A stretch of DNA of 64,000 bases, from the NCBI RefSeq assembly GCF_900090275.1, contig NZ_LT607755.1, positions 620,001-684,000 of the forward strand, given 5' to 3'. Below are positions 29,475 through 49,747 of this stretch, piece by piece. This stretch comes from Micromonospora zamorensis. Its GTDB lineage: Bacteria; Actinomycetota; Actinomycetes; Mycobacteriales; Micromonosporaceae. Position numbers and translations under genes: made by a program. Below the pieces are notes generated by a model. The model was not told the origin of the DNA. It did not search any database and saw nothing but the letters and a program-made list of their open reading frames with translations. Position 1 is the stretch's first letter. Each line of letters opens with the position of its first letter.

Positions 29475-30686
29475 TCAGGCCGACCCGGACGTCATCGCCG
29501 CCGTCGTGCGCTTCGGTCGGGAGCGCGGGATGAGGGCGTAACCGCCGTCGCGACGAACCACCATGGACAACTCCTCCAGGAGAGACAACTTGCGCAACGC
29601 GGTCCGCAGGTCGACACCCGCGCGGGCGGCGAGGCGGTCCACGCCCATCGCGCCTCGCTGCGGCAGCGCCTCCAGCAGTGACCGCGCGTCGTCGTCGAGC
29701 GCGTCGGCGGGCCGTTGCGGGCCGCGCGTCAACGGAGCCAGGTCCGCGCCGATCCGGCCCACCTCCTCAAGGACGTGCGCCAACCCGGTGACCAGCCGAG
29801 CCTTGGGGAACTCGCGGAGGAACTCGTGCGCGCCGACGGACATCGCCGAGGTCACCGGCCCAGGCACCACCATGGCCACCCGGTTGGTGTAGATGGCTCG
29901 CCGCGCGGTCTGCGTCGCGCCACTGCGTGCCGACGCCTCCACCAGGACGGTGCCCCGGGTGCCTGCGGCGATCACCCGGTTGCGGATCAGAAACCGGGGC
30001 CGCAGGGGTTCGGCACCGGGCGGCCACTCGCTGACCAGCAACCCGGTGTCGGCGATCCGGTCGAAGAGTGCGGCGTTGCCCATCGGGTACGGCCTGTCCA
30101 GCCCACAGGCGAGCACCGCGACGGTCAGGCCGCCGGCGTTGAGGGCACCCCGGTGGGCGGCGGCGTCGATGCCGAACGCGCCACCGGACACGACCGTCCA
30201 GTCCCGCTCGGCGAGCCCGTAACCCAACTCGGTCGCGACGTGCTGCCCGTAGCCGGTGGCCGCCCGCGCCCCGACCACGGCCACCGAACGATCCAGGGCC
30301 TCGCCCAACGGCCAACTTCCGCGTACCCAGAAGCAGAGCGGCGGGGCGGTCTCCACGTCCACCCGGCGGGTGACATCCGGCAGGCGCAGCTTGGCCAGGA
30401 CCGCGACCTGGGCTGGCCACTCCTCGTCGTCCGGCGTGACCAGGCGTGCTCCGAGCCGGTCCGCGCGCTCCAGCGCCTCGGCCGCCACCGCCCGGGCGTC
30501 GCCGGCCGCCGTCCGGGCGGCCACCGTGCTGTGCAGCCAACCGTCCGGGCTGCCGCCGTCGAGCAGCAGGTCCAGGGTCGCCACCGGGCCGTGCCGTTCG
30601 ACCAGTCGGTGCACCGCGCGGGTGCCCGGCTCGGCCAGCCAGGTCAGGGCGACCCGGGCCAGCCGCCGTTCGTCGTCGGCGCTCAT
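29475..30686 (-). CDS. dprA: DNA-processing protein DprA
   Basis: 403 residues. Rossmann-like DprA core: SVAVVGARAATGYGQHV, VSGGAFGIDAAAHRGAL, PYPMGNAALF, FLIRNRVIAAGTRGTVLVEA. A C-terminal winged-helix domain (about 325-385) follows. DprA loads RecA on incoming single strands during transformation. Its ATG overlaps the original comM stop (ATGA), showing that comM-dprA was a coupled operon. The prophage now separates this gene from the rest of comM and from the operon promoter, so expression may be reduced. Confidence 0.95.
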   Translation of the reverse strand: MSADDERRLARVALTWLAEPGTRAVHRLVERHGPVATLDLLLDGGSPDGWLHSTVAARTAAGDARAVAAEALERADRLGARLVTPDDEEWPAQVAVLAKLRLPDVTRRVDVETAPPLCFWVRGSWPLGEALDRSVAVVGARAATGYGQHVATELGYGLAERDWTVVSGGAFGIDAAAHRGALNAGGLTVAVLACGLDRPYPMGNAALFDRIADTGLLVSEWPPGAEPLRPRFLIRNRVIAAGTRGTVLVEASARSGATQTARRAIYTNRVAMVVPGPVTSAMSVGAHEFLREFPKARLVTGLAHVLEEVGRIGADLAPLTRGPQRPADALDDDARSLLEALPQRGAMGVDRLAARAGVDLRTALRKLSLLEELSMVVRRDGGYALIPRSRPKRTTAAMTSGSA

Positions 30687-30775
30687 GTCGCTTCTCCCGT
30701 CCGGAGTTGGATCGCTTCCCGCACGTCGTCCAGGTCCGGCCGATCCCGGCCGTCCAGGTCAGCGATGGTCCAGGC
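30683..30775 (-). pseudogene. comM: Detached 3' end of comM
   Basis: On the minus strand, the codons for WTIADLDGRDRPDLDDVR then EAIQLRTGEAT and TGA lie between the att core and dprA. These are the final helices of the Mg-chelatase-like C-terminal domain of ComM. Joining them to the gene at 48320-49747 across the 7-bp att core restores RVIRIAWTIADL in frame and gives a 506-residue ComM. Upstream, the frame continues into the prophage antisense to the integrase and has no plausible start. Confidence 0.92.
30769..30775. other. Left attachment site core (TCCAGGC)
   Basis: TCCAGGC is shared with 48313-48319. The left flank (GCGATGG) is host comM; the right flank (CATCGCAAGG) is phage. Removing the element between the copies rebuilds an intact comM codon frame. 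Serine integrases exchange strands at a central dinucleotide, here within CCAGG. The integrase start is only 27 bp away. Confidence 0.88.
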
Positions 30776-30802
30776 CATCGCAAGGATGCTTAGATCGCAG
30801 AC

Positions 30803-32242
30803 GTGGATGCACTCTCGTACGCACGCGCCAGCCAGGACAGGACCGGCGAGGAGCTGTCCGTCGCCCGTCAGCACGAAGACCACCGCGCCCTTGCCGACTC
30901 CCGCCAGGCGACGATCACCCGCGAGCTGACAGACAACGACGTGAGCGCTGCCGGCAAGCGGAAGCGCCCGGACTTCGAGGTCGGTCTGGAGTTGGTCCGC
31001 AAGGGTGAGGCTCGCGTCATCATCGCCACCGACATGAGCCGCCTGACCCGGGGCAAGGCCAGGGACGAGGTACGGCTGCTGGAGCTGGGCCTGGAGACGG
31101 GCCTCCAGCTCTGGTTCGTCCGTGCTCCCGACCTGGACCTCAGCACGGCGGCCGGCCGGCTCACCGCGTCCATCCTGATCGCTGCGGCGCGGCACGAGAT
31201 CGAGCAGAAGTCCGAGCGCCAGCGGCGGGCGGCGCGGCAGGCCGCAGAGCAGGGCCGCCGGATCGGTGGCCGCCGACCGTTCGGCTACGAGGCGGACGGC
31301 GTGACGATCCGGGAGGCCGAGGCCCAGGCCATCCGGGACGCCTACGACGCGGTGCTGACCGGCGTGCCGATCGGCCGGATCGCCGCGACGTGGAACGGGC
31401 GCGGCCTCACCACGCCGCAGACCAAGCGCGACGGGTCGCCTTCGCCGTGGACCGCCCAGACCGTCCGGCCCGTCCTGCTGAACCCCCGCTACGCCGGCCT
31501 GCGCAGCCATGTCACCGAACAGCTCCGGGAGTCGATGGACCCTCGGAAGGCCCGGATCAAGGGGATCGTGGGCAAGGCGGCCTGGAAGGGCCTCGTGGGT
31601 GAGGAGACGTGGCGCGCGGTGGTCGAGGTGCTGACCAACCCGTCCCGCCTCACCGGGCCGCGCTCCGGCAAGGGCCTGCTGACCGGCGTCGGGCTCTGCG
31701 GGATCTGTGAGGCGACCGTCCACCGTGGCGCGGCCCCGGCCCGTCGTGGTCAGCCCGGCCACACCACGTACCGCTGCCGCGCCTCGTACGGCCACGTAGG
31801 GCGTGCGTCCGAGCCGGTGGACCTCTACGTCACGGAGCTGGTGATCGCCCGCCTGGAGCGCCCTGACGCCGCCGCGCTGCTGATCGACCACGACCGGCCG
31901 AACGCCCGGGAGCTGGACCGCGAGACAAGGGCGATCAGGGCGCGGCTGGACGCGCTGGCACGGCTGCTCGCGGACGAGGTGCTGGACGAGATCAGCGTGC
32001 GCCGCGAGTCCAAGCGGCTGCGCGAGCGCCTGGCCGAGGTGGAGGCGGAGATGGCCGACGCCGGCCGGCTGGACGTCCTGGGGCCGCTGGTCCGGGCGGG
32101 CGACGTGCGGGCCGCCGTGCTGGCCCTGGACACCGACCGGCTGCGGCTGGTCATCAACCTGCTGATGACCGTCAAGCTGTTGCCGCCGGGCCGGGGCACG
32201 CGCACCTTCCGGCCGGAGTCCGTCGTGGTCGAGTGGCGTTAG
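30803..32242 (+). CDS. int: Large serine integrase
   Basis: 479 residues. Resolvase domain with nucleophile Ser10 (YARASQDRTGEE) and TDMSRLTRGK; recombinase domain about 155-260 (GRRPFGYEADG); Cys-containing ribbon (GLCGICEATV ... YRCRA) about 290-325; coiled coil about 365-425 (LDRETRAIRARLDALARLL). Integrates between attP and the comM attB without host factors. GTG 30803 lies 7 nt after TTAGAT, so a leaderless transcript is likely. Excision would need a directionality factor, perhaps one of the small adjacent proteins. Confidence 0.95.
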   Translation: MDALSYARASQDRTGEELSVARQHEDHRALADSRQATITRELTDNDVSAAGKRKRPDFEVGLELVRKGEARVIIATDMSRLTRGKARDEVRLLELGLETGLQLWFVRAPDLDLSTAAGRLTASILIAAARHEIEQKSERQRRAARQAAEQGRRIGGRRPFGYEADGVTIREAEAQAIRDAYDAVLTGVPIGRIAATWNGRGLTTPQTKRDGSPSPWTAQTVRPVLLNPRYAGLRSHVTEQLRESMDPRKARIKGIVGKAAWKGLVGEETWRAVVEVLTNPSRLTGPRSGKGLLTGVGLCGICEATVHRGAAPARRGQPGHTTYRCRASYGHVGRASEPVDLYVTELVIARLERPDAAALLIDHDRPNARELDRETRAIRARLDALARLLADEVLDEISVRRESKRLRERLAEVEAEMADAGRLDVLGPLVRAGDVRAAVLALDTDRLRLVINLLMTVKLLPPGRGTRTFRPESVVVEWR

Positions 32243-32267
32243 TTAGCGAGATAGATAAGCAATTCCG

Positions 32268-32301
32268 GGGTGGCCTGTGACGTTTCCGCAGGCCACCCTT
32301 T
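32268..32301 (+). terminator. Intrinsic terminator after the integrase
   Basis: GGGTGGCCTG (32268-32277) pairs perfectly with CAGGCCACCC (32289-32298) across an 11-nt loop and is followed by TTTGTGTTGTG. It starts 26 bp after the integrase stop and insulates it from the replication module. Confidence 0.88.
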
Positions 32302-32356
32302 GTGTTGTGTATGGCCTGTTCAGACGCATGATCACTCCGTGACTTAGAACACATGT

Positions 32357-32389
32357 ATAGCCAACATGAACAACTCTTGGCATGGCTAT
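32357..32389. promoter_or_regulatory. Inverted repeat ATAGCCA...TGGCTAT in the AT-rich intergenic region
   Basis: Seven-bp arms (32357-32363, 32383-32389) with a 19-bp spacer, in the most AT-rich stretch of the prophage (32303-32420), between the integrase terminator and the HTH gene. It is the best place for the early promoter and its operator. Which protein binds is unknown; the HTH protein just downstream is a candidate. Confidence 0.45.
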
Positions 32390-32488
32390 TTCACGTCCTC
32401 TAGTGTTCATTTCAGCGGCGAGATGCAACGGTTCGCAAGGCCACCGCAGAAGGACTCCTCTCAGTCCTAACGCGCCGCTGGAGCAGCA

Positions 32489-32791
32489 GTGGAAGACCAG
32501 AACTTCTACACCAAGGCGGACCTCGCCAAGAAGTTCAAGAAGACCGAGCAGACCATCCACAACTGGATCAAGGCCGGTCGACTCTGGACCGTGAAGGTGG
32601 AGGGCTCAGTCCTCATCCCCGAGTCCGCCGTCCAGGACATGCTGGCGGCCAACGTCCAGCAGCCCACCGGCCTGACCCGCGAGGCGCGTGCCGCCATTAC
32701 CGAGCTGGTCGCCGCAGCGCCGACGCTGACGCCGGAGAAGGTCGCCCAGCTCCGGCACATCCTCAACGACACCACCTCGGCGGTGGCGTGA
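32489..32791 (+). CDS. Small HTH DNA-binding protein (excisionase/MerR-like)
   Basis: 100 residues. N-terminal HTH_17-type domain FYTKADLAKKFKKTEQTIHN, then WIKAGRLWTVKVEGSVLIPE, the layout of excisionase-family winged helices. The C-terminal third is helical (LTREARAAITELVAAAPTLT). It is adjacent to the integrase and may be the recombination directionality factor, an early regulator, or a replication initiator; sequence alone does not decide. TGA overlaps the next ATG by one base. Confidence 0.75.
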   Translation: MEDQNFYTKADLAKKFKKTEQTIHNWIKAGRLWTVKVEGSVLIPESAVQDMLAANVQQPTGLTREARAAITELVAAAPTLTPEKVAQLRHILNDTTSAVA

Positions 32792-32955
32792 TGGCGTGCA
32801 TCTCCTGCGGCTCGCGCCGGCAGACCACGCGAGCGCTGGACCGGATGCTCCAGGCGGAGCGCAAGGTCCGGGAGGTCCCGGCAGACATCGACCTCTACGC
32901 CGCCGCAGGGCTCAACCTTGGCGTTGAGCAGCGCACCTCGGCAGGTGCCCGGTGA
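32791..32955 (+). CDS. 54-residue CxxC protein
   Basis: Starts MACISCGSRRQTTRALDRML. One Cys-x2-Cys pair at residues 3-6, then a basic helix and an acidic end. Coupled on both sides: the start overlaps the HTH stop and its stop overlaps the RepA start (GTGA). Too short to assign; a single zinc-knuckle half or dimerising metal site is possible. Confidence 0.6.
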   Translation: MACISCGSRRQTTRALDRMLQAERKVREVPADIDLYAAAGLNLGVEQRTSAGAR

Positions 32956-34085
32956 TCGAGTACAGCGACGACGAGGTGGCGAACCTGGCCATCGAGAAGA
33001 TTCTGGCCGACAAGCAGGCCGAGGCAGAGACGCAGGGGCCGGGCGAGCCGTTCGACTGGAGCGACTGCCCGGAGGCAGCCCCGAGGGAGCCGTCCGCCGA
33101 GCAGAGGCAGGCAGGGGAAGTCGTGGAAGCGGGCAAGTTGCCGGCCGTGGACATGCTGCGAGCGGCCCTGGTGGACTCGGACGGCTTGGACGACATCCCA
33201 GACCCGGTGCCGCTCATCGGGAACGACATCCTGTTCATCGACTCGATCAACTGGATGGTGGGCAAGCCCGGTCACGGCAAGTCGTTCGCTGCGATCGACA
33301 TGGCCGGCTGCGTCGCCACCGGATCACCGTGGCAGGGCTACCCCGTACGCCCCGGGCGAGTGCTCTACCTCATCGCTGAGGGCGTCCGGGGCGTCAAGAA
33401 GCGCGTGCGGGCGTGGGAGGCCGCGATGGGGCGCAGCATGGAGGACATCGACTTCCTGCCCATCGCGGTGCAGTCCACCAACGCGACCATGTGGGACGGG
33501 CTGGTTGCCCTGGCCGCCGAGCGGCAGTACGCCCTGATCGTGTTGGACACCCAGTCCCGGATCACGGTCGGCGTGGAGGAGAACTCCAACACCGAGATGG
33601 GCCGGTTCGTGGACCAGGCCGAGAAGCTGCGCAAGGCGTCGGCGGCCTGCGTGCTGATCGTTCACCACATCGGCCGGAACGGGGACACCGGACGCGGCGC
33701 GACCGTGTTGGACGGTGCTCTGAGCACCATCATCAAGGTGTCCAAGGACGGCGAGCTGGTGAAGCTGGAATGCACCAAGAACAAGGACGCCGAGGAATGG
33801 GACGACCTCACCCTGCGCCTGGTGCCGTACCTGGACTCGGTGGTCCCGGTGGTCGAACTCGGCCCCGGCGGCAGCTCCGGGAAGAGTGCGGCGCACAAGA
33901 TGGCGCAGGTCTGGTGGGAGAACTTCCAGGGGGACTGGATCAGCGCCTCCAAGGCCATTGACGCCGAGGTCGCCACCAAGTCGACGTTCCACCGTCACGC
34001 GAACGCCCTGGCGGGTCAGGGCTTGGTGGAGAAGCAGGAGATCGGCACCACCTACCGATTCAGGCTCACCAGGCACCCCGGCTGA
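32952..34085 (+). CDS. RepA-like RecA-fold ATPase/helicase (AAA_25)
   Basis: 377 residues. An acidic N-terminus (1-90), then a RecA-fold core with Walker A GKPGHGKS (104-111), Walker B ALIVLDT (194-200), and a sensor segment LIVHHIGRNGDTGRGA with an arginine-finger candidate. The C-terminus is a winged helix (TKSTFHRHANALAGQGLVEK). Resembles plasmid/phage RepA hexameric helicases (RSF1010 type). The iteron array starts 20 bp after the stop, supporting a replication role. Confidence 0.85.
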   Translation: MIEYSDDEVANLAIEKILADKQAEAETQGPGEPFDWSDCPEAAPREPSAEQRQAGEVVEAGKLPAVDMLRAALVDSDGLDDIPDPVPLIGNDILFIDSINWMVGKPGHGKSFAAIDMAGCVATGSPWQGYPVRPGRVLYLIAEGVRGVKKRVRAWEAAMGRSMEDIDFLPIAVQSTNATMWDGLVALAAERQYALIVLDTQSRITVGVEENSNTEMGRFVDQAEKLRKASAACVLIVHHIGRNGDTGRGATVLDGALSTIIKVSKDGELVKLECTKNKDAEEWDDLTLRLVPYLDSVVPVVELGPGGSSGKSAAHKMAQVWWENFQGDWISASKAIDAEVATKSTFHRHANALAGQGLVEKQEIGTTYRFRLTRHPG

Positions 34086-34104
34086 CCACCTTTCAAGTGC
34101 CCCT

Positions 34105-34282: not shown

Positions 34283-34306
34283 CAGATAAACGTCGATGGA
34301 GGACAA

Positions 34307-34730: not shown

Positions 34731-34733
34731 GCT

Positions 34734-35207: not shown

Positions 35208-35366
35208 ATGGAGTACGAGATGAGTGACACGGAAGCCTGGCGCGAGGATCTGCTGACCCACGGGGAGATCCAGGTGGACCCGATCCGGCAGCACCGGAGG
35301 GGAATGCGGCTGGTGGGTATCGGCATCGTGATGATGGCGCTGTCGCTGCTCTGGGCCGCGATGTGA
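35208..35366 (+). CDS. 52-residue single-pass membrane protein
   Basis: Acidic N-terminus (MEYEMSDTEAWREDLLTHGE), basic patch RQHRRGMR, and a C-terminal hydrophobic helix (LVGIGIVMMALSLLWAAM). Starts 2 bp after the previous stop; its TGA overlaps the HNH start (GTGA). Single-span proteins in this position could be membrane-tethered accessory or holin-like factors, but the location in the early region argues against a lysis role. Confidence 0.6.
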   Translation: MEYEMSDTEAWREDLLTHGEIQVDPIRQHRRGMRLVGIGIVMMALSLLWAAM

Positions 35367-35626
35367 GCAGGGCCTGGAGGCAGGGCAGTACGACGCGGTG
35401 GCGCGCAACGCGGGCGGCTGTGCTGCACAGGGACAAGGAGACGTGCACCATCAAGGCCAAGGGCTGCACCGTGCGGGCTACTCACGTGGATCACATCGTG
35501 CCGCGCGAGATGGGCGGCACCGAGGAGATGGACAACCTGCGGGCAGCGTGCGAGCACTGCAACCTGAGCCGCAAGAGGGCTCGCGTTGAGCCCGAGCCAG
35601 CACCGAAGCGCGTCAGCAGTTGGTGA
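35363..35626 (+). CDS. HNH endonuclease
   Basis: 87 residues. HNH core: CTIKAKGC (first Cys pair), ATHVDHIVPREMGG (catalytic DH), and NLRAACEHCNLSRKR (Asn and second Cys pair). Small HNH proteins next to terminase are required for packaging cleavage in HK97-type phages. Here it is separated from terminase by a terminator and lies on the opposite strand. Confidence 0.9.
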   Translation: MSRAWRQGSTTRWRATRAAVLHRDKETCTIKAKGCTVRATHVDHIVPREMGGTEEMDNLRAACEHCNLSRKRARVEPEPAPKRVSSW

Positions 35627-35698: not shown

Positions 35699-37216
35699 TT
35701 ACGCCAGCTCCAGGGGCGGCCGGACCTTGACGGTGCGGGCCAGGTGGACGGCTCCGGCCATCGCGTACGTACCGTCGATCGGCGCGGAGCCCCGGCGGGT
35801 GTAGACCCAGGCGTCGCCGTGCCGGAGCTTCTGGGTCTGGGACACGTGGGCGTTGAGCATGTCGTCGTCCGGGTGCTGAACCTGGCCGGTTATCACCTGC
35901 TCCGCCAGGCCCATGCAGACCGCCGGGGTGTCGCCGGTCAGCTCGGCGACCTTGGTCCGCCCCGCCCATGACCGCGAGCCCTTGGCGCGCAGGCTCGCCG
36001 CGATGCCCGCCGCCGGGCCGGCCGGGAACCACCCGAACTGCGCGGGCCGTAGCCGCTTCATGATGGCGGGCAGCTCGGCGCGGACGGCGGCCGTACAGCC
36101 GAATCCCTGCCACCGCTGGACGACCTCCACGTGGGTGATCCCGTCGATCGTGGCGGCGGCTACCAGGGTGGCGTGCTCGCCGTTCAGAGACACGTCAAGG
36201 CACAGACACAGGCGGGTGCGGTACTCGGCCAGGTTGACCGGCTCAGGGCTTCCAGCGGCCTTCCAGGCGTCCGGGTCGATGGCCGGGTCCAGGGTGTCGA
36301 CGCGCTGGCACATCATCTCGATACGGAACCGGGCCAGCGTCTCCCCTCCGGCGCGCTTCGCCTGTGTGGCCTGCCCGAGCAGCGCGTCCAGTTGCAGCGC
36401 CCGGCGGTTGAGGTCCGGGTTCGCGTAGGCCAGCGCCTCCACGTCGGTTGGGTCCGAGCCGGGCGGCGCGCTCCACGAGAACAGGCCCAGGCGGGGGTCG
36501 CCCTCCCCTGTCTCAATGAACGCCTGGGCGGCGTCTCCCAGCTCGTGAAGGACCACCGCGCTGTCGTCGCCCTCGTTCGTGATGATCACGGCCTGGGCGT
36601 CGGGAACGGCGTTCATGGTGGGGATCAGGGCGTCCCAGGCGTCGCGGTTCTTGTGCTGCCTCAGCTCATCGATGATGGCCCGGTCGATGGTGCGCGACCG
36701 GCCGGCGCGGGAGTTCGGCGCACCGAAGAGGTACGACGATCCCAGGCTGTTCCAGAACTCCTCCTCACCGATCTGCTTGTTGATGTGCCGAGCGGGAAGC
36801 TCGCGCGCCAGCAGCTCGATGGACTCGGCCATCTTGATCACCTCTTTCCACGACGCCTTTGCGGTGTCACGGGTGGAGTTGATGCCGAAGACGATCGGGA
36901 CCGTCTCAACGAACATCCAGTACAGCGTCAGGATGCGGCAGAACAGGCTCTTGCCGTTCTGTCGGGCCACCAGGATGAGAGCGATGCGGAACCGGGGCCG
37001 GCCGTCAGGCAGCAGCTCACCGATGTGGATGGCAAGCCATCGCTGCCACGGGTCGAGCGGCCAGCCGATCGCCCTGGCGAAGTCGATCAGCTCGTAGCCG
37101 AACGAGGCGTTCCGGTCGGTCAGGTCACGGAGCGGCGGCGTCCACAGTCGCGGCTCGACCCTTCCCAGCACGGCGGGCGCGGAGTTCGTCAAGCTCAGAG
37201 TCAGCGGGCTTGTCAT
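35699..37216 (-). CDS. terL: Terminase large subunit
   Basis: 505 residues. ATPase domain with Walker A VARQNGKS (83-90) and Walker B RAIIDE (179-184); the nuclease domain begins at the acidic strand LCLDVSLNGEH with later acidic residues. Packages DNA into the capsid through the portal. ATG 37216 has GGAAGG 6-7 nt upstream, so the 92-nt overlap with terS is probably real. Transcribed leftward, opposite to all structural genes. Confidence 0.92.
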   Translation of the reverse strand: MTSPLTLSLTNSAPAVLGRVEPRLWTPPLRDLTDRNASFGYELIDFARAIGWPLDPWQRWLAIHIGELLPDGRPRFRIALILVARQNGKSLFCRILTLYWMFVETVPIVFGINSTRDTAKASWKEVIKMAESIELLARELPARHINKQIGEEEFWNSLGSSYLFGAPNSRAGRSRTIDRAIIDELRQHKNRDAWDALIPTMNAVPDAQAVIITNEGDDSAVVLHELGDAAQAFIETGEGDPRLGLFSWSAPPGSDPTDVEALAYANPDLNRRALQLDALLGQATQAKRAGGETLARFRIEMMCQRVDTLDPAIDPDAWKAAGSPEPVNLAEYRTRLCLCLDVSLNGEHATLVAAATIDGITHVEVVQRWQGFGCTAAVRAELPAIMKRLRPAQFGWFPAGPAAGIAASLRAKGSRSWAGRTKVAELTGDTPAVCMGLAEQVITGQVQHPDDDMLNAHVSQTQKLRHGDAWVYTRRGSAPIDGTYAMAGAVHLARTVKVRPPLELA

Positions 37217-37427
37217 CGGCGGCCTTCCCGCGCTGAGCGAGCGCGCGAGCGCGCGGGGACATCTGGAGGGCTTCGAGAGTGGTCAAGAGGGCCGGCCCGA
37301 GCTTCGCGGCGTCGCCCCCACCGTCCAGCTCGGAGGCATAGAACCGGGCGAGGTCGGCCACGGCGCGGTCGCGCTCGCCGACCGGATGGGCCAGCAGCGC
37401 AGCATTCACGGACTCGGCCAGGGCCAC
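37125..37427 (-). CDS. terS: Terminase small subunit (probable)
   Basis: 100 residues, helical and charged (ERDRAVADLARFYASELDGG; LGPALLTTLEALQMSPRARA), ending Ala-rich. Assigned by position directly upstream of terL and by resemblance to short P27-like small subunits; no DNA-binding motif is obvious. GTG 37427 lies 6 nt after TATCCT on the minus strand, inside the palindromic control region. Overlaps terL by 92 nt in another frame. Confidence 0.72.
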   Translation of the reverse strand: MALAESVNAALLAHPVGERDRAVADLARFYASELDGGGDAAKLGPALLTTLEALQMSPRARALAQRGKAADDKPADSELDELRARRAGKGRAATVDAAAP

Positions 37428-37433
37428 AGAACT

Positions 37434-37462
37434 AGGATACCCCTACCCGGTAGGGGTATCAT
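37434..37462. promoter_or_regulatory. 25-bp palindrome with mirror-image divergent promoters (terS | portal)
   Basis: A perfect palindrome, GATACCCCTACC-C-GGTAGGGGTATC, spans 37436-37460 in the 41-bp gap between divergent GTG starts. Rightward, TATCAT (37457-37462) ends 6 nt before the portal GTG. Leftward, TATCCT (37439-37434) ends 6 nt before the terS GTG. Both -10 elements include the palindrome ends, so a dimeric protein here could control packaging and assembly genes together, and the two promoters could not be occupied simultaneously. Confidence 0.75.
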
Positions 37463-41780: not shown

Positions 41781-41794
41781 AGAGGACTGGCCTG

Positions 41795-42202
41795 ATGGCC
41801 TTCGTTCACGGCAAGAACACGTTCATCTCGCTGGGCGGGGATGACCTGTCAGCGTTCACGACCACGAGCCAGTTGGAGAAGACCGCCGACTCGCACGACG
41901 TCACCACGTACGGCAAGAAGGCGCACGTCTTCAACGGTGGCCTGCTCAACGGCAGCGGCACCATCTCGGGCATCTACGACAGCACCGCCAGCACCGGCCC
42001 GCGCGCCGTCATCAACCCGCTGGTGGGCACCGTCGTGGAGCTGATCCGTCAGCCAGAGGGCGCGGGCACGGGCAAGCCGCAGGACGTCGTGGACGTCCTG
42101 GTGACCAAGTACACCGAGACGAACCCGGTCGCCGACATGGTGACGTGGTCGTGCGACCTCCAGTTCAGCGACGAGATCAACTCGGCCGCGCAGCCCGCCT
42201 GA
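41795..42202 (+). CDS. Major tail (tube) protein
   Basis: 135 residues, beta-rich: KNTFISLGGDDLSAFTTTSQ, DVTTYGKKAHVFNGGLLNGS, and DMVTWSCDLQFSDEI. Matches small phage tail-tube proteins. GAGAGGACTGGCCTG upstream gives a good ribosome-binding site. Position before the tail chaperone and tape measure confirms the call. Confidence 0.85.
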   Translation: MAFVHGKNTFISLGGDDLSAFTTTSQLEKTADSHDVTTYGKKAHVFNGGLLNGSGTISGIYDSTASTGPRAVINPLVGTVVELIRQPEGAGTGKPQDVVDVLVTKYTETNPVADMVTWSCDLQFSDEINSAAQPA

Positions 42203-42222
42203 TCAACCAGGAGACGATCCAG

Positions 42223-42549
42223 ATGGACAAGACCAAGCTGACCGCGCAGACGCTGCCCAGCGGCACCGTCGAGGTCGAGGGGGTCGGAGAGGTCCACGTA
42301 CGCGGCCTCTCCCGGTTCGAGCTGCTGCTGGCCGGCAAGGTCGGCGGCGACGACGTGGCGCTGATGGAGCGCAAGATGCTGTCCTTCGCCATGACCGACC
42401 CGGAGATGACCGAGAAGGACGTGGAGGCGTGGCAGAAGACCTCGCCTGCCGGCCAGATCGCCCCGGTGGTGGCGAAGGTCAACGAGCTGTCCGGTGTGAG
42501 CCGGGGCGCGTCCAAGGAGGCGTACAAAAGCCTTCGAGAAGAGTCCTGA
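42223..42549 (+). CDS. Tail assembly chaperone, upstream (G-like) product
   Basis: 108 residues, MDKTKLTAQTLPSGTVEVEG and a helical C-terminal half (MERKMLSFAMTDPEMTEKDV; SRGASKEAYKSLREES). Follows the tail tube gene, as lambda gpG does. An open frame in register +1 starts before its stop and supplies the longer GT-like product; see 42500-42691. Confidence 0.85.
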   Translation: MDKTKLTAQTLPSGTVEVEGVGEVHVRGLSRFELLLAGKVGGDDVALMERKMLSFAMTDPEMTEKDVEAWQKTSPAGQIAPVVAKVNELSGVSRGASKEAYKSLREES

Positions 42550-42691
42550 CCTGGAGTTCGACTTCTTCCTGGCCGAGAAGCTGGGCATGACGGTCGCGGA
42601 GATGCGGCACCGGGTTTCCGGTGAGGAGTACGTCGGCTGGACGGTCTACTACGGCCGGAAGGCCCAGCGTGAGCAGATGGCGGGGAGGTGA
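42500..42691 (+). CDS. Tail assembly chaperone, downstream (T-like) frame reached by +1 frameshift
   Basis: The frame is open from 42500 to TGA 42691 and encodes PDLEFDFFLAEKLGMTVAEM then RHRVSGEEYVGWTVYYGRKA, a standard T-part sequence lacking its own start at the right place. It lies +1 (or -2) relative to the G-part, not -1 as in lambda. The A4 run at 42526-42529 (TAC AAA AGC) lets tRNA-Lys re-pair after a +1 slip, giving EAYK-AFEKSPDLEFDF and a 155-residue fusion. Confidence 0.75.
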   Translation, partial: AGARPRRRTKAFEKSPDLEFDFFLAEKLGMTVAEMRHRVSGEEYVGWTVYYGRKAQREQMAGR

Positions 42692-42694
42692 GCA

Positions 42695-43108
42695 GTGGAA
42701 GCCAAGATCAGCGTCGAGGGCCTGGCGGAGTTCAACCGTGGCCTGCGCAAGCTCGACTCCAACGCGCCGAAGCAGTTGCGCATCGCCCTCAACGAGGCGG
42801 CCGAGTTGCTGGTGTCGCGGACGGTGCCGCTGATCCCTCGGGTCACCGGGGCTGCCGCGAAGTCGCTCAAGGCGAAGTCCACCAGGACGTCCGCTCGGGT
42901 GTCCGTAGGCGGCCGGCACGCCCCGTACTACCCCTGGCTGGATTTCGGCGGACAGGGACGCCGTGCGGGGCGTCCGGCGGGGCGTCCGTTCATCCGTGAG
43001 GGCCGCTACCTCTTCCCGACGCTGGCCAAGCACCGCCCGGAGATCGAGCGGACGTTGCTCACCTCTCTGACGCAGGTTGCGCGCAACTCTGGGCTGGACG
43101 TGGACTGA
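42695..43108 (+). CDS. HK97 gp10-like putative tail component
   Basis: 137 residues. The fold signature is visible: KISVEGLAEFNRGLRKLDSN, LRIALNEAAELLVSRTVPLI, and a basic C-terminal part GRRAGRPAGRPFIREG. Usually this family lies before the tail tube gene; here it sits between chaperone and tape measure. GTG start; the stop overlaps the tape-measure ATG (TGATGG). Confidence 0.82.
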   Translation: MEAKISVEGLAEFNRGLRKLDSNAPKQLRIALNEAAELLVSRTVPLIPRVTGAAAKSLKAKSTRTSARVSVGGRHAPYYPWLDFGGQGRRAGRPAGRPFIREGRYLFPTLAKHRPEIERTLLTSLTQVARNSGLDVD

Positions 43109-44487
43109 TGGCCAACTCAGTGAACCTGGAGTTCGCGGGCGACGCCACGAAGCTGGCGAAGGCGGCGAAGCAGGCCGAGCAGGCGACCGCCGGGGTCGGC
43201 AAGGCCGCGACGGACGCCAACGACGACCTCCGCAAGGCAGCGGGCGGCAGCGACGAGTTCACCAGCAAGGTCGGGAGCCTGGGCGCGGCCGTGGACGGCG
43301 CGTCGACTGCGATCGGCGACGCCGCTGGCACGTTGCAGGCGTTCGCAGACATCCAGGCCGCCGGGTTCAACAAGACTCAGCGGCTTGAGCGGGCGCTGAA
43401 CGACATGGCCCAGGCTCAGGAGGACGCCAACCAGGCCATGATCGATGGCAAGCAGGCGACCCTTGACATCGGCCAGGCCCAGATCGACGCCGAGCAGGCC
43501 GTGCTTGACCAGGCTGCGGCGCAGAAGGAGTACAACGCAGCGGTCAAGGAGCACGGGGCCGGCAGCGAGGAGGCCAGGCAGGCGGCCCTTGACCTCAAGC
43601 AGGCGCAGCAGGACCTCAAGCAGGCAAACCTTGACGTTGACCAGGCCAACGCCGACGCGAACCAGTCAACGATCGACCTCAAGAACGCCCAGTTGGACCT
43701 GAACGAGGCGACCAAGGAGGCCAACCCGCCCGAGTTGCAGGAGTGGGCCGACAAGATCAACATGATCGCCCCGATCCTCACGGGGCTGGTCGGTGTCGTC
43801 GCCCTGGTCACTGCTGCTCAGTGGGCGTGGAACATCGCGCAGTTGGCCAGCCCGACGACGTGGATCATCCTGGCGATCGTCGCGCTGATCGCCGTGATCG
43901 TGCTCATCGCCACGCAGACCACGTGGTTCCAGGACCTCTGGAACGCGGCATGGGGTGGCATCAAGGATGCCGCGTCCGCTGTGGGCTCGTGGATCAAGGA
44001 CACCCTGTGGGACAAGTGGATCAAGGGTGCCTTCAACTCGATCACGGACAAGGCCGGGGACCTGATCGACTACATGAAGGACATGCCCGACAAGCTCAAG
44101 AAGGCATTCTCCAAGGTCACCGACTTCATCTTCGCCCCGTTCAGGGCCGCCTTCAACAAGGTGTCGGACGCCTGGAACTACACGATCGGCAGCCTGTCGT
44201 GGAGCGTCCCGGGCTGGATTCCCGGCATCGGCGGCAACAGCATCTCGGTCCCGGACCTGCCCAAGTTCCACTCCGGCGGCATCGTCCCCGGCACTCCCGG
44301 CTCCGAAGTGATGGCCGTGCTCCAGGCCGGAGAGCGAGTCACGCCCGTGACCGGCTCGGGCGGCGGCGCGGTGGTGGTCATCGACTCCGCTGGCTCCCGG
44401 CTGGACGACCTGCTGCTTGAGGTGCTGCGCAAGGCCGTGAAGACGCGCGGCGGCAACGTCCAGCTCGTGCTCGGCGGTGGAGCATGA
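43108..44487 (+). CDS. Tape measure protein (short)
   Basis: 459 residues. Residues about 1-210 form an Ala/Gln/Asp-rich coiled coil with repeats such as DLKQAQQDLKQANLDVDQAN; two hydrophobic segments follow (ILTGLVGVVALVTAAQWAWN; WIILAIVALIAVIVLIATQT). The C-terminal part has amphipathic helices and FHSGGIVPGTPGSEVMAVLQ, then GERVTP, a very common tape-measure ending. At roughly 0.15 nm per residue the tail would be near 70 nm, short for a siphovirus. Confidence 0.9.
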   Translation: MANSVNLEFAGDATKLAKAAKQAEQATAGVGKAATDANDDLRKAAGGSDEFTSKVGSLGAAVDGASTAIGDAAGTLQAFADIQAAGFNKTQRLERALNDMAQAQEDANQAMIDGKQATLDIGQAQIDAEQAVLDQAAAQKEYNAAVKEHGAGSEEARQAALDLKQAQQDLKQANLDVDQANADANQSTIDLKNAQLDLNEATKEANPPELQEWADKINMIAPILTGLVGVVALVTAAQWAWNIAQLASPTTWIILAIVALIAVIVLIATQTTWFQDLWNAAWGGIKDAASAVGSWIKDTLWDKWIKGAFNSITDKAGDLIDYMKDMPDKLKKAFSKVTDFIFAPFRAAFNKVSDAWNYTIGSLSWSVPGWIPGIGGNSISVPDLPKFHSGGIVPGTPGSEVMAVLQAGERVTPVTGSGGGAVVVIDSAGSRLDDLLLEVLRKAVKTRGGNVQLVLGGGA

Positions 44488-46625
44488 GTAAGGCATATAG
44501 CTTCAAGGTGGAGCTGTTCCTGGGGTCGCTCGGTTGGGTCGACATCACCGCAGACGTTCGCGGCAGCGTCACCATCACTCGGGGTCGCACCAGCGAGGGC
44601 AATCAGGCCGACCCGGGGCGCTGCACGTTCCGCCTGGACAACATCTCCGGCAACTACTCGCCGCGCGACCCGGCTGGCGCGTACTACGGGCTGCTCGGCC
44701 GGAACACACTGCTGCGCGTGAGCGCCGGACGGCCCCCGTTGACCGGCCGGTTCTACGGCGAGGTGGTGGCGTGGCCGCCCGGTTGGAGCCTCAACGGCAA
44801 GGACCGGTACGTAGACGTCGAGGCCGCTGGAGTCCTGCGCCGACTCGGGCAGGGCCAGTGGCCGAGTAAGTCGGCGCTCCGGCGAGCGATCGAGGACGCC
44901 GACGACCGGCCGATCGCGTGGTGGCCGCTGGAGGACGGTCGGTCGGTTGACCGGGCGGCATCCGGGGTGCCGGGCGGCCCGCCGATCGTTGAGCTGGGCC
45001 GCCGGTCCGAGACGAGTCACATCGGTGTCGGCGATTTCGACGGGCAGATCGTCTGGGGCGTCGAGGGCAGTCAGGGGGCCGCCTCACTGGTCGGCTTGCA
45101 GACCGGGGGTCGGCTGTCCGCGTCCATCCCGGCCAGCACCGCGACGAGCTGGACGTTCGAGTTCGCCATCCGGTTCGACGCGGGCTCCAACCCGGGCGGC
45201 AACTTCTCGTTGCCGATGACCCTGCGGTCGAGTGCCGGCTGGGACTGGGCGTTCATGTTTGACCCGGCCGGCACCGTCACGCTCGTCGGCGGCAGCACCG
45301 ACGCCTCGGTCATCGGCGTGGAACTGGTCGGCCCGCACCCTGGATGGGACGGGTACCTGCATCACATCCGGCTCGACGTCGAGCAGGACGGCGGGACCAG
45401 CTTTCATTACCTGTGGGTCGATGGAGTGGTCGTCGCCACCGGCCCCTGGTCCGGTTTCCTCGCCCCGGTGCCGGACCTGGTGCTGCCGAACTTCATGCTG
45501 GACAGCAGCGGTTGGGCTCCTTCGCTCGGACACCTGACGCTGTTCGCCCCGCGCGCCGCCTACTACGACTCCATCCGTCCTGGCGCGACCGCAGCCTGGG
45601 ACAACGAGGCCGCCACCGACCGGCTGGCCCGGCTGTGCGGTGAGGAAGGTATCTCGCTGACCATGTCGTCGGTGGCGGCCGACGCCGTGCAGCGGATGGG
45701 CTGGCAGCCGGTGGGGACGTTCGCCGAGTTGCTCGAACAGTGCGTTGCCGTGGACGGCGGCTACCTGCACGAGCGGCGCGACGCGCTCGGCCTCAAGTAC
45801 CGCCCGCGCGTGAGCCTCTACAACCAGACGCCCGTGCCCATCGCCTATGTTGGCAAGCTGGCACCGCCGTTCGAGCCGGTCGATGATGCCGATGCGGTGC
45901 GCAACGACGTCACGGTGAAGCGCACCTCGGGCAGCTCGGCCCGGGTGGTGGAAACCACCGGCAGGCTGGCCGCCTTGCCGCCACCGGCCGGGGTGGGCGT
46001 GTACCAGAGCAGCGTCGAGCTGAACCTGGCGAACGACGCTGCTCTGGCTGACCAGGCAGCGTGGCGAGTCCACCTCGGGACCGTGGACCAGCCCCGCTAC
46101 CCGGCGCTGTCGGTAGAGCTGGCCGCGCCCGCGTGGCGGAACGACCTCGCGGGGACCTCCGCGCTGCTCGGCGTCGACAGCGGTGACGTGATCGAGGTGA
46201 CCGGGCTGCCGTCGTGGGCGACCGGGGACGCGCGAACCCTGGTGCTCGGCTACACCGAGACGATCAGCGAGTTCACCTGGCGGATCACCTTCAACGGGGT
46301 GCCCGCGTCGCCGTGGGATGTCGCCACGGCGGATGGGCTCCAGCGCGCGGCGGCTGATGGGTCAACGCTGTCCGCTGCGCTGACCTCCACGGGGATGTCC
46401 CTGGGGCTGGCGTCCACCGTCTGGAACGGACCCTGGACCACCGACCCGACCGACTTCCCGCTGGATGTGCGGGTGGGCGAGGAACGGATTCGCCTGTCGG
46501 CCATCAGCGGTGGCAGTAGCCCTCAGACGGCCACGATCACCGCCCGGGGCCTCAACGGTGTGCAGAGGGCGTGGCCGGCCGGCACTGAGGTGGACGTATG
46601 GCAGCCGGCGATCGCACCACTATGA
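44484..46625 (+). CDS. Minor tail/hub protein with LamG-like insertion
   Basis: 713 residues. N-terminal 120 residues resemble Dit-like hub proteins (KAYSFKVELFLGSLGWVDIT; GRCTFRLDNISGNYSPRDPA). About 145-345 is a jelly-roll (IAWWPLEDG; TWTFEFAIRFDAG; HHIRLDVEQDGGTSFHYLWV), a LamG/concanavalin-like carbohydrate-binding domain. The C-terminal half returns to Tal-like beta domains. Probably the receptor-binding tip. Overlaps the tape-measure stop (ATGA). Confidence 0.8.
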   Translation: MSKAYSFKVELFLGSLGWVDITADVRGSVTITRGRTSEGNQADPGRCTFRLDNISGNYSPRDPAGAYYGLLGRNTLLRVSAGRPPLTGRFYGEVVAWPPGWSLNGKDRYVDVEAAGVLRRLGQGQWPSKSALRRAIEDADDRPIAWWPLEDGRSVDRAASGVPGGPPIVELGRRSETSHIGVGDFDGQIVWGVEGSQGAASLVGLQTGGRLSASIPASTATSWTFEFAIRFDAGSNPGGNFSLPMTLRSSAGWDWAFMFDPAGTVTLVGGSTDASVIGVELVGPHPGWDGYLHHIRLDVEQDGGTSFHYLWVDGVVVATGPWSGFLAPVPDLVLPNFMLDSSGWAPSLGHLTLFAPRAAYYDSIRPGATAAWDNEAATDRLARLCGEEGISLTMSSVAADAVQRMGWQPVGTFAELLEQCVAVDGGYLHERRDALGLKYRPRVSLYNQTPVPIAYVGKLAPPFEPVDDADAVRNDVTVKRTSGSSARVVETTGRLAALPPPAGVGVYQSSVELNLANDAALADQAAWRVHLGTVDQPRYPALSVELAAPAWRNDLAGTSALLGVDSGDVIEVTGLPSWATGDARTLVLGYTETISEFTWRITFNGVPASPWDVATADGLQRAAADGSTLSAALTSTGMSLGLASTVWNGPWTTDPTDFPLDVRVGEERIRLSAISGGSSPQTATITARGLNGVQRAWPAGTEVDVWQPAIAPL

Positions 46626-46637
46626 GAGGACCATGTT

Positions 46638-47135
46638 GTGACGATGCCAGTACCGATCGCGTCGGGGATGCGGCTGACCCCCTCCCGGCTGAACCGACCC
46701 ACCTCGTACAGCGTCCGGTCGACCGCATCGCAAACCGGTGTCGGCACCACCGAAACGCTGTCGTTGACCGTGCCCAGCGTGACGTTCAAGGCCGGGTGGG
46801 CGTATGAGGTGCAGATCCGAGGGCTCGTGTACGGCACCGCCGCCGCTCAGGCGCTGTTCCGGGTGCGGAAGACGAACGTTGCAGGCACTGACTGGGGTGA
46901 GTTCGGGCGGGTGCGGTGCGAGAGCACCAGCGCGGGCACGAGCGCCATGGCGAACGGGTCGATTGTGCTGCTGCGGTCGGCGACGACGGATCTGACCGCT
47001 GCCGTGGCGCTGACGATTGTGGCGTCGTCGGGCACGGTGAACGTGTTCGCTAACGCGGCCTCCCCTCGGTATGTGGTGGTCCGCCCGTGCGGGTTCGCTT
47101 CCGAGTACGCCGGCTGCGGCGTGGAGGTGAACTGA
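46638..47135 (+). CDS. Distal tail protein, beta-rich
   Basis: 165 residues, beta-sandwich-like with alternating Thr/Val (SLTVPSVTFKAGWAYEVQIR; ALTIVASSGTVNVFANAASP). Two Cys near the C-terminus. Last gene of the structural operon. Similar short proteins end tail operons in other actinophages and are thought to be fibre or spike subunits; assignment is by position and composition. Confidence 0.65.
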   Translation: MTMPVPIASGMRLTPSRLNRPTSYSVRSTASQTGVGTTETLSLTVPSVTFKAGWAYEVQIRGLVYGTAAAQALFRVRKTNVAGTDWGEFGRVRCESTSAGTSAMANGSIVLLRSATTDLTAAVALTIVASSGTVNVFANAASPRYVVVRPCGFASEYAGCGVEVN

Positions 47136-47201
47136 TGACCCGCGTAATGGGGTGACCGCAGGAGCCCTGACATGTCCGGCGGCGAGGGCTATTGCTGGGC
47201 G

Positions 47202-47417
47202 TCAGCTCTCGTTGCCCCGGATCTGGTACCGGGCGGCGCGACGTGCCCGGTACTCAGCCAGGAGTTCGGCGGCCTCGTCCAGCTTCGGGCAGGGGCCTTC
47301 ATCGGGACAGGAGGAGCAGGTGTCCCGCTCATGCCAGGTGATGCAGTAGGACGCCTGCTCCACATAGAAGGGAACGCTGGTCAGAGTCCGGGGCTGGTGA
47401 TCGGGGTACGTACTCAT
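47202..47417 (-). CDS. 71-residue Cys-rich protein, minus strand
   Basis: MSTYPDHQPRTLTSVPFYVE, a Cys cluster YCITWHERDTCSSCPDEGPC, and a helical end LDEAAELLAEYRARRAARYQ. GAAGGG lies 6-7 nt before the ATG on the minus strand, which favours it over the rightward open frame across the same bases. Its start is 26 bp from that of the next, divergent gene. Possible metal-binding protein; no family recognised. Confidence 0.6.
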   Translation of the reverse strand: MSTYPDHQPRTLTSVPFYVEQASYCITWHERDTCSSCPDEGPCPKLDEAAELLAEYRARRAARYQIRGNES

Positions 47418-47442
47418 TGCGTGCCCTTCGGGGGAGGAAGAG

Positions 47443-47787
47443 ATGGGCGAGGAGTCGATGGATGTGAACCTGGGGGAGGTCACACGGCGGCTGGACCGGA
47501 CGGACGAAGAGGTGCGAGGGCTGGGCACCGAGATGCGGGCTGGCTTCCAGTCGCTTGGCGACAAGATGGAGCGCCTAGCCTTCGTGCCGGCGGCGGTCTA
47601 CGCGGCGGACCGGGCGGCCGATACGGAGCGCGTCCGGCGCTTGGAGGCTGACCTTCACCAAGAGGTGCGCGAGCGCGAGGAGGCGCAGAAGACCTCGGGG
47701 AGCAACCGCTGGTCGCTGCTGCTGGCGGGGCTCGGCATCCCGGCCTCCGTGCTGGCCGGAGTGGTTACCTCCCGCTTCACGAACTGA
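47443..47787 (+). CDS. XhlA-like coiled-coil/membrane protein, possible holin-type lysis factor
   Basis: 114 residues. Coiled coil with charged heptads (LGEVTRRLDRTDEEVRGLGT; EADLHQEVREREEAQKTSGS), then one C-terminal hydrophobic helix (WSLLLAGLGIPASVLAGVVT). This is the layout of haemolysin XhlA of Bacillus phage PBSX, associated with lysis. GGGGAGGAAG precedes ATG. No endolysin lies beside it, so the lysis role is only inferred. Confidence 0.6.
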   Translation: MGEESMDVNLGEVTRRLDRTDEEVRGLGTEMRAGFQSLGDKMERLAFVPAAVYAADRAADTERVRRLEADLHQEVREREEAQKTSGSNRWSLLLAGLGIPASVLAGVVTSRFTN

Positions 47788-47892
47788 GCGGTACGGCCGC
47801 TGGTTGAGGTTCGTGGTCAGCACGGTTGGCCTCCGTCCGTTACCCCCGCGAGGGCCGGGAGCCCCGCTCACCGCCCCCCGCAGGGGATTAGG

Positions 47893-47926
47893 GGACCGAC
47901 CCCCAACGGGGGGCGGGGGCCGGTCC
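47893..47926 (+). terminator. G/C-rich hairpin after the XhlA-like gene
   Basis: GGACCG (47893-47898) and CGGTCC (47921-47926) enclose C5 and G-runs (ACCCCCAACGGGGGG) that extend the stem. It lies in the 251-bp gap between the XhlA-like gene and the GntR gene and could end the late transcript. Stem pairing is imperfect in the middle. Confidence 0.5.
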
Positions 47927-47970
47927 GGGTGGGCCTCCTGCCAAGGTGCCCAGCGCCGAATCTGTCATGC

Positions 47971-48009
47971 CCGGGTATACCCGGTCAAGGGTGGATCGCC
48001 GGGTATTAC
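47971..48009. promoter_or_regulatory. Repeated CCGGGTAT(A/T)AC sites upstream of the GntR-type gene
   Basis: A 14-bp perfect palindrome CCGGGTATACCCGG (47971-47984) and a second partial copy CCGGGTATTACAGG (47999-48012), 28 bp apart. TATACC inside the first could be the -10 of the downstream gene (start 48039). GntR-family proteins bind short palindromes in their own promoters, so autoregulation is likely. Confidence 0.6.
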
Positions 48010-48038
48010 AGGTGATGATTGACGGAGGAGGTAAGGGC

Positions 48039-48290
48039 ATGGTCAACTCGGCGAGTCCTGCCAAGGAGCCAGTCATGCCTGCCCAGACCAAGACCGACAA
48101 GCTCATGTCCGCGATCAGGGACCGCATCGCCAAGGGCGAGTTCGGCCCTGGCGACAAGCTGCCCAGTGGCACCGAGATGATCGACCAGTACGGCGTCTCG
48201 CGGATCACCGTGCGGATGGCGATGGAGCGATTGAAGGCGTCCGGCGAGGTGGAGTCCATCCCCGGCAGCGGTTACTACGTCTCCGACTGA
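48039..48290 (+). CDS. Minimal GntR-type winged-helix regulator
   Basis: 83 residues from ATG 48039 (GGAGGAGGT 7 nt upstream). Nearly the whole protein is the GntR wHTH: DKLMSAIRDRIAKGEFGPGD, KLPSGTEMIDQYGVSRITVR, MAMERLKASGEVESIPGSGY. There is no effector-binding domain. It ends 22 bp before the right att core. It is the best candidate for a repressor or excision control protein, as no CI-like repressor is present. Confidence 0.82.
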   Translation: MVNSASPAKEPVMPAQTKTDKLMSAIRDRIAKGEFGPGDKLPSGTEMIDQYGVSRITVRMAMERLKASGEVESIPGSGYYVSD

Positions 48291-49747
48291 CCGGAGTTAC
48301 GCCATTCCCCTATCCAGGCGATCCGAATGACCCGGTCGAAGCCGCGCGCCGACAGCGAGCCGGAGTCGAGCCGGCCCCGCAGTTCGGCGGTGACCCGGGC
48401 GGGCAGCCGCCACGGCGGTCGGCGCAGGTGCGGGCCGTCCACCTCGGCGTTCACGCGCCGGCCGAGACCGGCCCAGCGGGTGGCCGCCGCCTGCCGGGCC
48501 GTTGCCACCCGGGCGGCGACCGTCGCCGACGGCTCGGTGTCGCCCTCGGGTGCCAGCAACTCCGCCGCCCGCACCGGCATCAGCCGAACCTGTACGTCGA
48601 TCCGGTCGAGCAGCGGCCCGGAGAGCCGGCCCAGGTAGCGGCGGCGGACCAGCGCTGTGCACTCGCAGTGCGCGTCGCCGGACGGCTTCGCACACGGGCA
48701 CGGATTGGCGGCAAGCACCAGTTGGGTCCGGGCCGGGTACACGGTGCCGCCCCCGCTGCGACTCAGCTGGATGCGACCGTTTTCCAGTGGTTGGCGCAGG
48801 GCCTCCAACGCGCCCTTGCTGAACTCGGGGGCCTCGTCCAGGAACAGCACCCCGCGGTGTGCCAGCGACACCGCGCCGGGCCGGGCCAGCCCCGAGCCTC
48901 CACCGACCAGCGACGGCACGGTCGCGGTGTGGTGCGGCGCCTGGAACGGCGGGCGACGCAGCAACCGGCCGCCCGGCGGCAGCAGCCCGGCAATCGAGTG
49001 CAGCGCCGTGACCTCCAGCGCCGCGTCGTCGTCCAGCTCGGGCAGGATCGACGGCAGCCGTTCGGCCAGCATCGTCTTGCCGGCACCCGGAGGGCCGAGC
49101 AGGGCCACGTGGTGCCCGCCGGCGGCGGCGACCTCCAACGCGCGTCGGCCCAGCTGCTGCCCGGCGACATCGGCGAGATCCGGTCCGTCGTCCAGCTGTG
49201 CCGGGACGGCCGTCGGAGGCTCGATCAGCGGAGTGCCGTCGCGAACGAAGGCGACCAGCCGGTGCAGGTTGTCCACCGCTCGCACCCGTACTCCCGGGAT
49301 GACCGCGGCCTCGGCGGCGTTGCCAACCGGCACGATCACCCGCCCGACGCCGGCCTGGGCCGCGGCGGCGACCATCGGGAGCACCCCGCGCACCGGTCGG
49401 ACCGTCCCGTCGAGCCCCAACTCGCCGAGGACCACGACCCCCTCCAGCGGAAGCAGTGGCAGTTCGCCCGAGCCGCCGAGTAGCGCCGCGGCGATGGCGA
49501 GATCGAAGGCCGAGCCGAACTTCGGCAGCGTGGCGGGCAGCAGGTTGAGGGTGATCCGCCGGTTGGGCCAGCGCTGGCCGGAGTTGACCACGGCGGCGCG
49601 AACGCGGTCGCGGGCCTCGTACAGGGCGGTGTCCGGTAACCCGGATATCACCACCGCCGGCAGGCCGGCGGACAGGTCGGCCTCCACCTCGACCAGGTGA
49701 CCGGTCACCCCGACCAAGCCCACACAGAGCACCTTGGCGTAGCTCAT
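48275..49747 (-). pseudogene. comM: comM (yifB) Mg-chelatase-like AAA+ ATPase, truncated by the prophage
   Basis: 490 codons remain; the first 478 are ComM. N-terminal Lon-protease-like fold (VLCVGLVGVTGHLVEVEADL), Walker A LLGPPGAGKTMLAERLP, Walker B RGVLFLDEAPEFS, a Cys group ANPCPCAKPSGDAHCECT and sensor region RRYLGRLSGPLLDRIDVQVR. It then reads LSARGFDRVIRIAW into 12 phage-encoded residues (IGEWRNSGQSET) instead of the native 28. ComM is a hexameric branch-migration helicase for natural transformation in Gram-negatives. The truncated C-terminal domain may cost function. Confidence 0.93.
48313..48319. other. Right attachment site core (TCCAGGC)
   Basis: Identical to 30769-30775. The left flank (CATTCCCCTA) is phage; the right flank (GATCCGAATGACC) is comM. 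Phage-side flanks give the inferred attP CCCCTA-TCCAGGC-CATCG; host-side flanks give attB GATGG-TCCAGGC-GATCC. Confidence 0.88.

Follow-up and report, generated by a model that had tools for sequence, protein, structure and literature searches.

The window examined here is the whole 64,000-bp stretch at positions 620001-684000 of the single 7.1-Mb contig of Micromonospora zamorensis (G000). It carries on its minus strand a yraN-like gene, comM and dprA, and comM is split by a 17,544-bp element which separates its last 31 codons from the rest. The 5' part of comM (48323-49747), encoding codons 1-475 of a YifB-type AAA+ helicase, continues into 15 phage-encoded residues, the last codon of which is followed by the frame's end at 48278. 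The 3' stub (30683-30778), with codons 476-506 and the stop, overlaps the start of dprA, whose intact 403-aa frame (29475-30686; Pfam DNA_processg_A) is separated by the element from yraN and comM. The gene upstream of comM (49780-50148), which we take to be yraN, was found in the same place in each of 29 intact loci of relatives. In all 29 of these loci the yraN-comM-dprA order was kept and dprA started no more than 18 bp from the end of the comM match; the comM gene of G011 is likewise uninterrupted. The junctions, the rejoined frame and the uninterrupted relatives bore out the original prediction, made from the window alone, that a prophage lies inside comM and separates it from dprA. Since the gene order was kept in every intact locus, comM and dprA are neighbors in the relatives, and these carry an intact comM rather than one ending as in M. 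zamorensis.

The two junctions share a short identical core with unlike arms, and the integrase gene adjoins one of them. TCCAGGC occurs at 30769-30775 and at 48313-48319, with a spacing of 17,544 bp, and was first proposed as the crossover. Joining the flanks across it does give an open ComM frame of 506 codons whose stop overlaps the dprA ATG, compared to 490 aa in the occupied frame, and this part of the proposal stood, while the exchange itself was placed eight bases further on. The TCCAGGC join reads RIAW at codon 476. Among 29 intact close relatives, this codon was ATG in 28 (RMAW), TTG in one (RLAW), and ATC in none, so that TCCAGGC was rejected as the crossover. The ComM proteins P0001, P0002, and P0003 also read RMAW. 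Moving the crossover by eight bases to a shared AT restores exactly ATG. In addition, the attP defined by this AT showed its best inverted symmetry there, with 26 of 50 bases; among the 19 centers tested, the runner-up reached 22. From the relatives' codon 476 and the attP symmetry, the crossover is the palindromic AT at 30777-30778 (integrase-side junction) and 48321-48322 (comM 5'-side junction), the first two bases of the Met476 codon, and TCCAGGC is a half-site shared by attB (30769-30775) and attP (48313-48319). The lysogen ComM therefore consists of residues 1-475 followed by the 15 phage-encoded residues IAWIGEWRNSGQSET, the A-W of which coincide with native residues. Accordingly 31 native residues (476-506) are replaced by 15, and not 28 by 12 as first calculated.

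Compared with G011, codons 1-475 had 12 nonsynonymous and 55 synonymous changes (dN/dS 0.084). This shows no decay of the 5' part, though the value largely reflects the time before insertion. Three homologs were compared with the rejoined ComM, and P0002, an uninterrupted protein, differed from it at 5 residues. A second ComM as a backup was rejected, as comM at 48323-49747 was the sole strong match to the ChlI domain in its own genome; the other two scored 33.3 and 25.5 bits, the latter being below the cut-off and inside radA. The genome keeps comEC (E 6.4e-53) and radA, and its dprA frame is open.

The element carries on the dprA side a large serine integrase of 479 aa (30803-32242, plus strand; Pfam Resolvase and Recombinase, phrog_95 integrase). 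It is followed on the plus strand by an excisionase-like HTH_17 protein (32489-32791), a candidate directionality factor or regulator, an AAA_25 ATPase resembling primases or helicases (32952-34085), and an HNH endonuclease (35363-35626), the last two by family matches. The terminase large subunit (35699-37216) is encoded on the minus strand, opposite to the head-tail genes, together with a terminase small subunit-like protein (37125-37427), whose match to Pfam Terminase_6 (E 1e-5, 26.4 bits against a cut-off of 27) was obtained for the stop-to-stop frame 37125-37442. Family matches on the plus strand identified a portal protein (37469-38704), a head maturation protease (38685-39353), and a major capsid protein (39363-40658). 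Further along the same strand are the head-tail connector genes, tail terminator, major tail protein, and neck protein (40801-43108), a block in which 42145-42549 had no family, a short tape measure protein of 459 aa (43108-44487), and a 713-aa protein (44484-46625; phrog_5313, function unknown) which may be a tail protein to judge by its position. As to lysis genes, family scans gave nothing for 46638-47135 and 47172-47651, and only a family of unknown function for 47443-47787. A GntR-family HTH regulator (47946-48290, plus strand) lies beside the right junction. Thus the structural set of a tailed phage is present, with terminase, portal, protease, capsid, and tail genes. None of the scanned proteins of the element matched a transposase family; they include the serine integrase instead.

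The capsid protein had relatives at 21 viral-contig loci and no match in 50,697 phage records. A 15,175-bp viral contig shared 16 of 19 compared proteins, all with 100% identity, and was without the integrase end and the last genes, while the capsids of the remaining 20 contigs were 41-75% identical. Several of these contigs kept the order terminase-portal-protease-capsid-tail. The inversion of the terminase is not general, because only 9 of the 17 viral contigs with a match shared it, and in the other 8 the terminase ran with the head-tail genes. No integrase relatives were found in the fetched parts of the 21 contigs. Another viral contig (L211), found via its integrase (37% identity), carried relatives of the AAA gene (53%), the HNH endonuclease (38%), the terminase (30%), and the capsid (41%). 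These contigs and L211 indicated that very small siphophages of this type form a real lineage, to which the element belongs and in which one relative has a related integrase. Across the 160 genus genomes, 13 also had capsid matches, the own genome included; ten of the others were 43-54% identical and two were only short. L240-L244 are among the places of these matches. We favor, with a probability of about 0.87, a small temperate siphophage whose own large serine integrase inserted it at an attB in codon 476 of comM, by exchange at AT.

The same codon is occupied in the M. arborensis genome G005 by a different element of 9,346 bp. Only the integrase region aligned between the two elements (78% DNA identity over 1,433 bp), and their attP sites were identical at 48 of 62 positions. 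The integrase runs with comM in G005 and against it in G000. In other serine integrases, including Bxb1, the direction depends on the central dinucleotide (PMC3783163), and AT is its own reverse complement. We infer that both directions are possible with this natural core because it is symmetric, and that this integrase family would not fix the direction of insertion. The pair of opposite insertions may thus represent a natural integrase that ignores direction. At the other loci with this C-terminal site, the integrase was directed with comM in G050, L005, L008, L009, and L010, while L006 and L007 showed the opposite direction. Where both junctions could be read, the core dinucleotides at these loci looked different from AT, namely CT in G050 and L006 and TG in L007.

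Insertion into comM proved to be recurrent. Among 28 genome loci with relatives of the integrase, a comM piece adjoined the integrase in 17, and 11 were without one. Seven of the insertions lie at about residue 477 (M. arborensis, Kineosporia, a Pseudonocardiales metagenome-assembled genome, Intrasporangiaceae, Microbacterium, Arthrobacter, and Sinomonas), nine near residues 82-85 together with a second Sinomonas element (L026 on a 32-residue match only), and one near residue 37 (L022). In Sinomonas sp. ASV486 (L010, 605-11395), comM is split twice, at about residues 84 and 480, each time with its own serine integrase. The original prediction had suggested independent convergence with the AbaR islands of Acinetobacter. 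This was right, but the case is far from unique, as relatives of the integrase sit in comM of several actinobacterial genera.

The comM locus was then compared across the 160 genus genomes. The gene was full-length in 129, broken, a remnant or distant in 24, and absent from 7. A serine integrase or its fossil was found at the comM locus of 19 genomes, at about five places: residue 82 (G012, G070, G137, G051, G052, and G100, with fossils of the same type in G095, G112, G127, and G138), residue 224 (G071 and G148), about residue 277 (G010), residue 304 (G005, G030, G092, and G115), and residue 476 (G000, G005, and G050). The comM halves of G050, G070, and G148 are on separate contigs. A break at residue 204 in G095 was rejected as a separate site, being a site-82-type integrase fossil with a deletion. 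In G005 (L122-L123) two elements interrupt one comM, the first at residue 304 and the second at residue 476; P0003, also labelled Micromonospora arborensis, is an intact ComM. Defects without an insert looked like frameshifts in G074, G119, G145, and G146; G098 has a deletion, and in G036 comM is split at contig ends. G020, G027, and G142 retained at most dprA remnants with no integrase seen, and the assemblies of G059, G079, and G118 are very fragmented. The G137 locus (L131-L132) is rearranged, and past its split main copy of comM a second fragment of the gene (residues 293-477) lies upstream of yraN.

Of 128 genomes drawn from across the class, G177, G223, and G284 had comM split near residues 302-306 by 7-22 kb, and G233 had a frameshift; splits at contig ends or two-piece matches in one frame were left uncounted. 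A serine integrase stood at the break in G223 and G284, whereas G177 has two tyrosine recombinases instead. These are arranged in tandem at the Walker B codons (L199, 1786-5594), where a site of serine integrases is thus taken by enzymes of an unrelated class; the motifs that we take to be Walker A and Walker B were named from their letters in ComM.

A tree was constructed from 47 integrases, with the fragments G095 and L029 dropped and the fossils G112, G127, and G138 left out. The site labels were strongly clustered on it, with 11 changes compared to 27.7 in shuffles (0 of 200 as low), and the label of the C-terminal site alone required 2 changes compared to 8.4. The site-304 integrases formed one tight group (support 100/100) on a long branch, and the site-277 enzyme stood alone, also on a long branch. 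The site-224 pair, tight (100/100) and long-branched, fell inside a 25-row clade (99/83) that held all site-82 enzymes. Four or five integrase groups thus appear to target comM, each at its own place, though long-branch joins may be false. Codon conservation was calculated in 13-codon windows from 40 intact ComM genes of the class-wide draw plus G011. The six crossover places had a mean nucleotide identity of 0.68 compared to 0.58 for all windows (P 0.0016), ranking at the 99th percentile for site 304, 98th for 224, 93rd for 476, 86th for 277, 64th for 82, and 48th for 37, and four of the six fall on conserved motifs. Motif codons are thus favored, although sites 82 and 37 are only average.

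The site-82 insertions form a graded series. About 2 kb with the whole integrase lies between the comM halves in G051; G052 and G100 keep the integrase and have lost most of comM; and in G112, G127, and G138 only the C-terminal part of the integrase (74-77% identical) remains, between yraN/comM and dprA remnants. The series reads as an erosion of old insertions, a single ancestral insertion being the alternative. We also scored comEC, calling a match weak at E above 1e-45 for one domain, a cut-off set after the scores had been seen. All 14 genomes whose comM is occupied but otherwise retained, G000 among them, gave a full-length, high-scoring match. The comEC match was weak or absent in 11 of 129 intact-comM genomes and in 11 of the 12 comM-lost genomes, which include the very fragmented G059, G079, and G118 (Fisher P 1e-9, uncorrected for kinship and a hint only). 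The idea that comM occupancy goes with comEC loss was rejected, as none of the 14 occupied genomes had a weak or absent comEC. The series of 160 genomes, from whole elements to fossils beside lost comM and dprA, provides a basis for asking whether phages drive the loss of transformation.

Most likely, the lysogen would make a ComM without its conserved C-terminal segment, and dprA, cut from the operon, would lose co-transcription with comM. ComM-dependent recombination would then fall, with the DNA-uptake gene comEC staying. The pattern among relatives suggests that what draws integrases to comM may be the conservation of its motif codons across many hosts together with the dispensability of the gene, and by analogy with the model of PMC4774983 the element might gain by hampering its own removal via transformation. 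Several results weigh against this overall explanation. No endolysin was recognized among the element proteins, so the element may need help or be partly defective. In 30600-32600 no sigma-70-like promoter for dprA was found, a scan that says little for this organism. Only 7 of the 9 integrases of the C-terminal site grouped together (91/93, below the level starred by the program), the two others standing apart. Moreover, an intact RadA might stand in for ComM, an idea put forward for Firmicutes and not for actinobacteria (PMC11612176).

How comM came to be used so often can be explained in several ways. It may be a neutral target, used because it is conserved, widespread, and non-essential, with any effect on transformation incidental, and we give this slightly less than an even chance. 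The raised identity of the crossover windows, the tyrosine-recombinase element at the Walker B codons, and the complete loss of comM in some lineages all fit. Conservation alone is nevertheless insufficient, because radA, which also acts in recombination and is about as long, occurred in all 160 genomes (159 over the cut-off) and was full length in all 150 genomes listed, with clearly lower scores in G038 and G108 of the ten not listed; radA may, however, be less dispensable. The average conservation at sites 82 and 37 and the enrichment of competence genes among serine-integrase targets (PMC10083194) also speak against mere neutrality. Alternatively, elements that cripple ComM may persist since heterologous recombination that would delete them falls, as in the intragenomic-conflict model with its cases (PMC4774983); by analogy this is conceivable, with the odds somewhat against it. 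The repeated targeting by four or five integrase groups is in its favor, comM inactivation accompanies lost transformation in A. baumannii (PMC11472951), and the uptake gene is still present in the occupied genomes, because 14 of 14 had a full comEC match. Yet comEC was strong in 118 of 129 intact-comM genomes too, so that the occupied genomes are unremarkable (Fisher P 0.60), and to our knowledge natural transformation is not on record for Micromonospora.

A regulated switch as at comK, with the prophage holding comM off and excising when DNA uptake is useful, seems improbable. The precise junctions that restore the frame, the intact integrase with its excisionase-like HTH gene, and the undecayed 475 comM codons would suit it, but any recent site-specific prophage looks alike. 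Beside the site-82-type integrases or fossils of G052, G100, G112, G127, and G138, comM is largely gone and dprA truncated or missing, which argues against a reversible state. As to the proposed shut-off of transformation in lysogens, only the last 31 ComM residues are changed, and ComM loss elsewhere reduces transformation and does not abolish it (PMC11472951). A broader proposal, which we hold only tentatively and consider doubtful, is that actinobacterial comM is a multi-site landing zone where recombinases converged on motif codons and insertions erode into a one-way loss of transformation genes. The codons concerned would be Walker A Lys224, Walker B Asp304-Glu305, and the C-terminal RMAW, attB sites that the host could not easily change, and old insertions would stay uncured and decay together with dprA, at times also comEC.

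Parts of this picture were already known. Magnesium-chelatase/comM homologs are the targets of 12.4% of predicted site-specific serine integrases, and DNA competence genes are enriched among the targets (Durrant et al., 2022; PMC10083194). That study concerns the same target gene family and enzyme class as the element of the window, and the text compared contains no in-gene site map, orientation or link to dprA and comEC. The sr1WO prophages of Wolbachia likewise split a magnesium chelatase gene by means of a serine recombinase, leaving the halves at both ends (PMC9203015), although host and phage are unrelated to ours. Mobile elements also split comM in Aggregatibacter, Acinetobacter, Mannheimia, Francisella, and Pseudomonas (Croucher et al., 2016; PMC4774983), gamma-proteobacterial cases unlike the actinobacterial host of the window. 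The AbaR islands of A. baumannii are tied to a Tn7-like element (PMC11472951), and they differ from the present element by their Tn7-like transposition genes. ComM is described as the hexameric branch-migration helicase of Gram-negative transformation (PMC11612176), and without it transformation of A. baumannii drops 10- to 100-fold, whereas in V. cholerae its loss has little effect when the DNA is identical (PMC11472951). No data on ComM loss in actinobacteria turned up, and no search was aimed at them. The Listeria A118-type prophages in comK share with our element the serine integrase, the competence gene as target, and the precise junctions, and they undergo regulated excision, but comK is a regulator, unlike comM. 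No report of comM insertions in Micromonospora was found in limited literature searches, in which the term comM is ambiguous and subscription papers lay outside. As far as these searches show, the multi-site map, the opposite orientations at a palindromic core, and the fossils beside decayed comM-dprA are new, and the list of hosts in which mobile elements persistently target this recombination helicase gene now includes a soil actinomycete.

The elements inserted in comM measured 8-22 kb and were mixed in content. In a survey of 20 proteins from nine elements, four elements had a capsid gene, several had AAA_25 ATPases, two had minor tail genes, and HerA-like ATPases were encoded by two of the site-304 elements. 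Two genomes contain an additional ComM-like gene with 51-52% identity to the query, at L085 (G145) and at G135:C2:1493708-1495231. In addition, the Intrasporangiaceae comM element (L007, 16197-18071) encodes a fusion of a DNA methylase with an Mrr-type nuclease domain, which may serve in defence.

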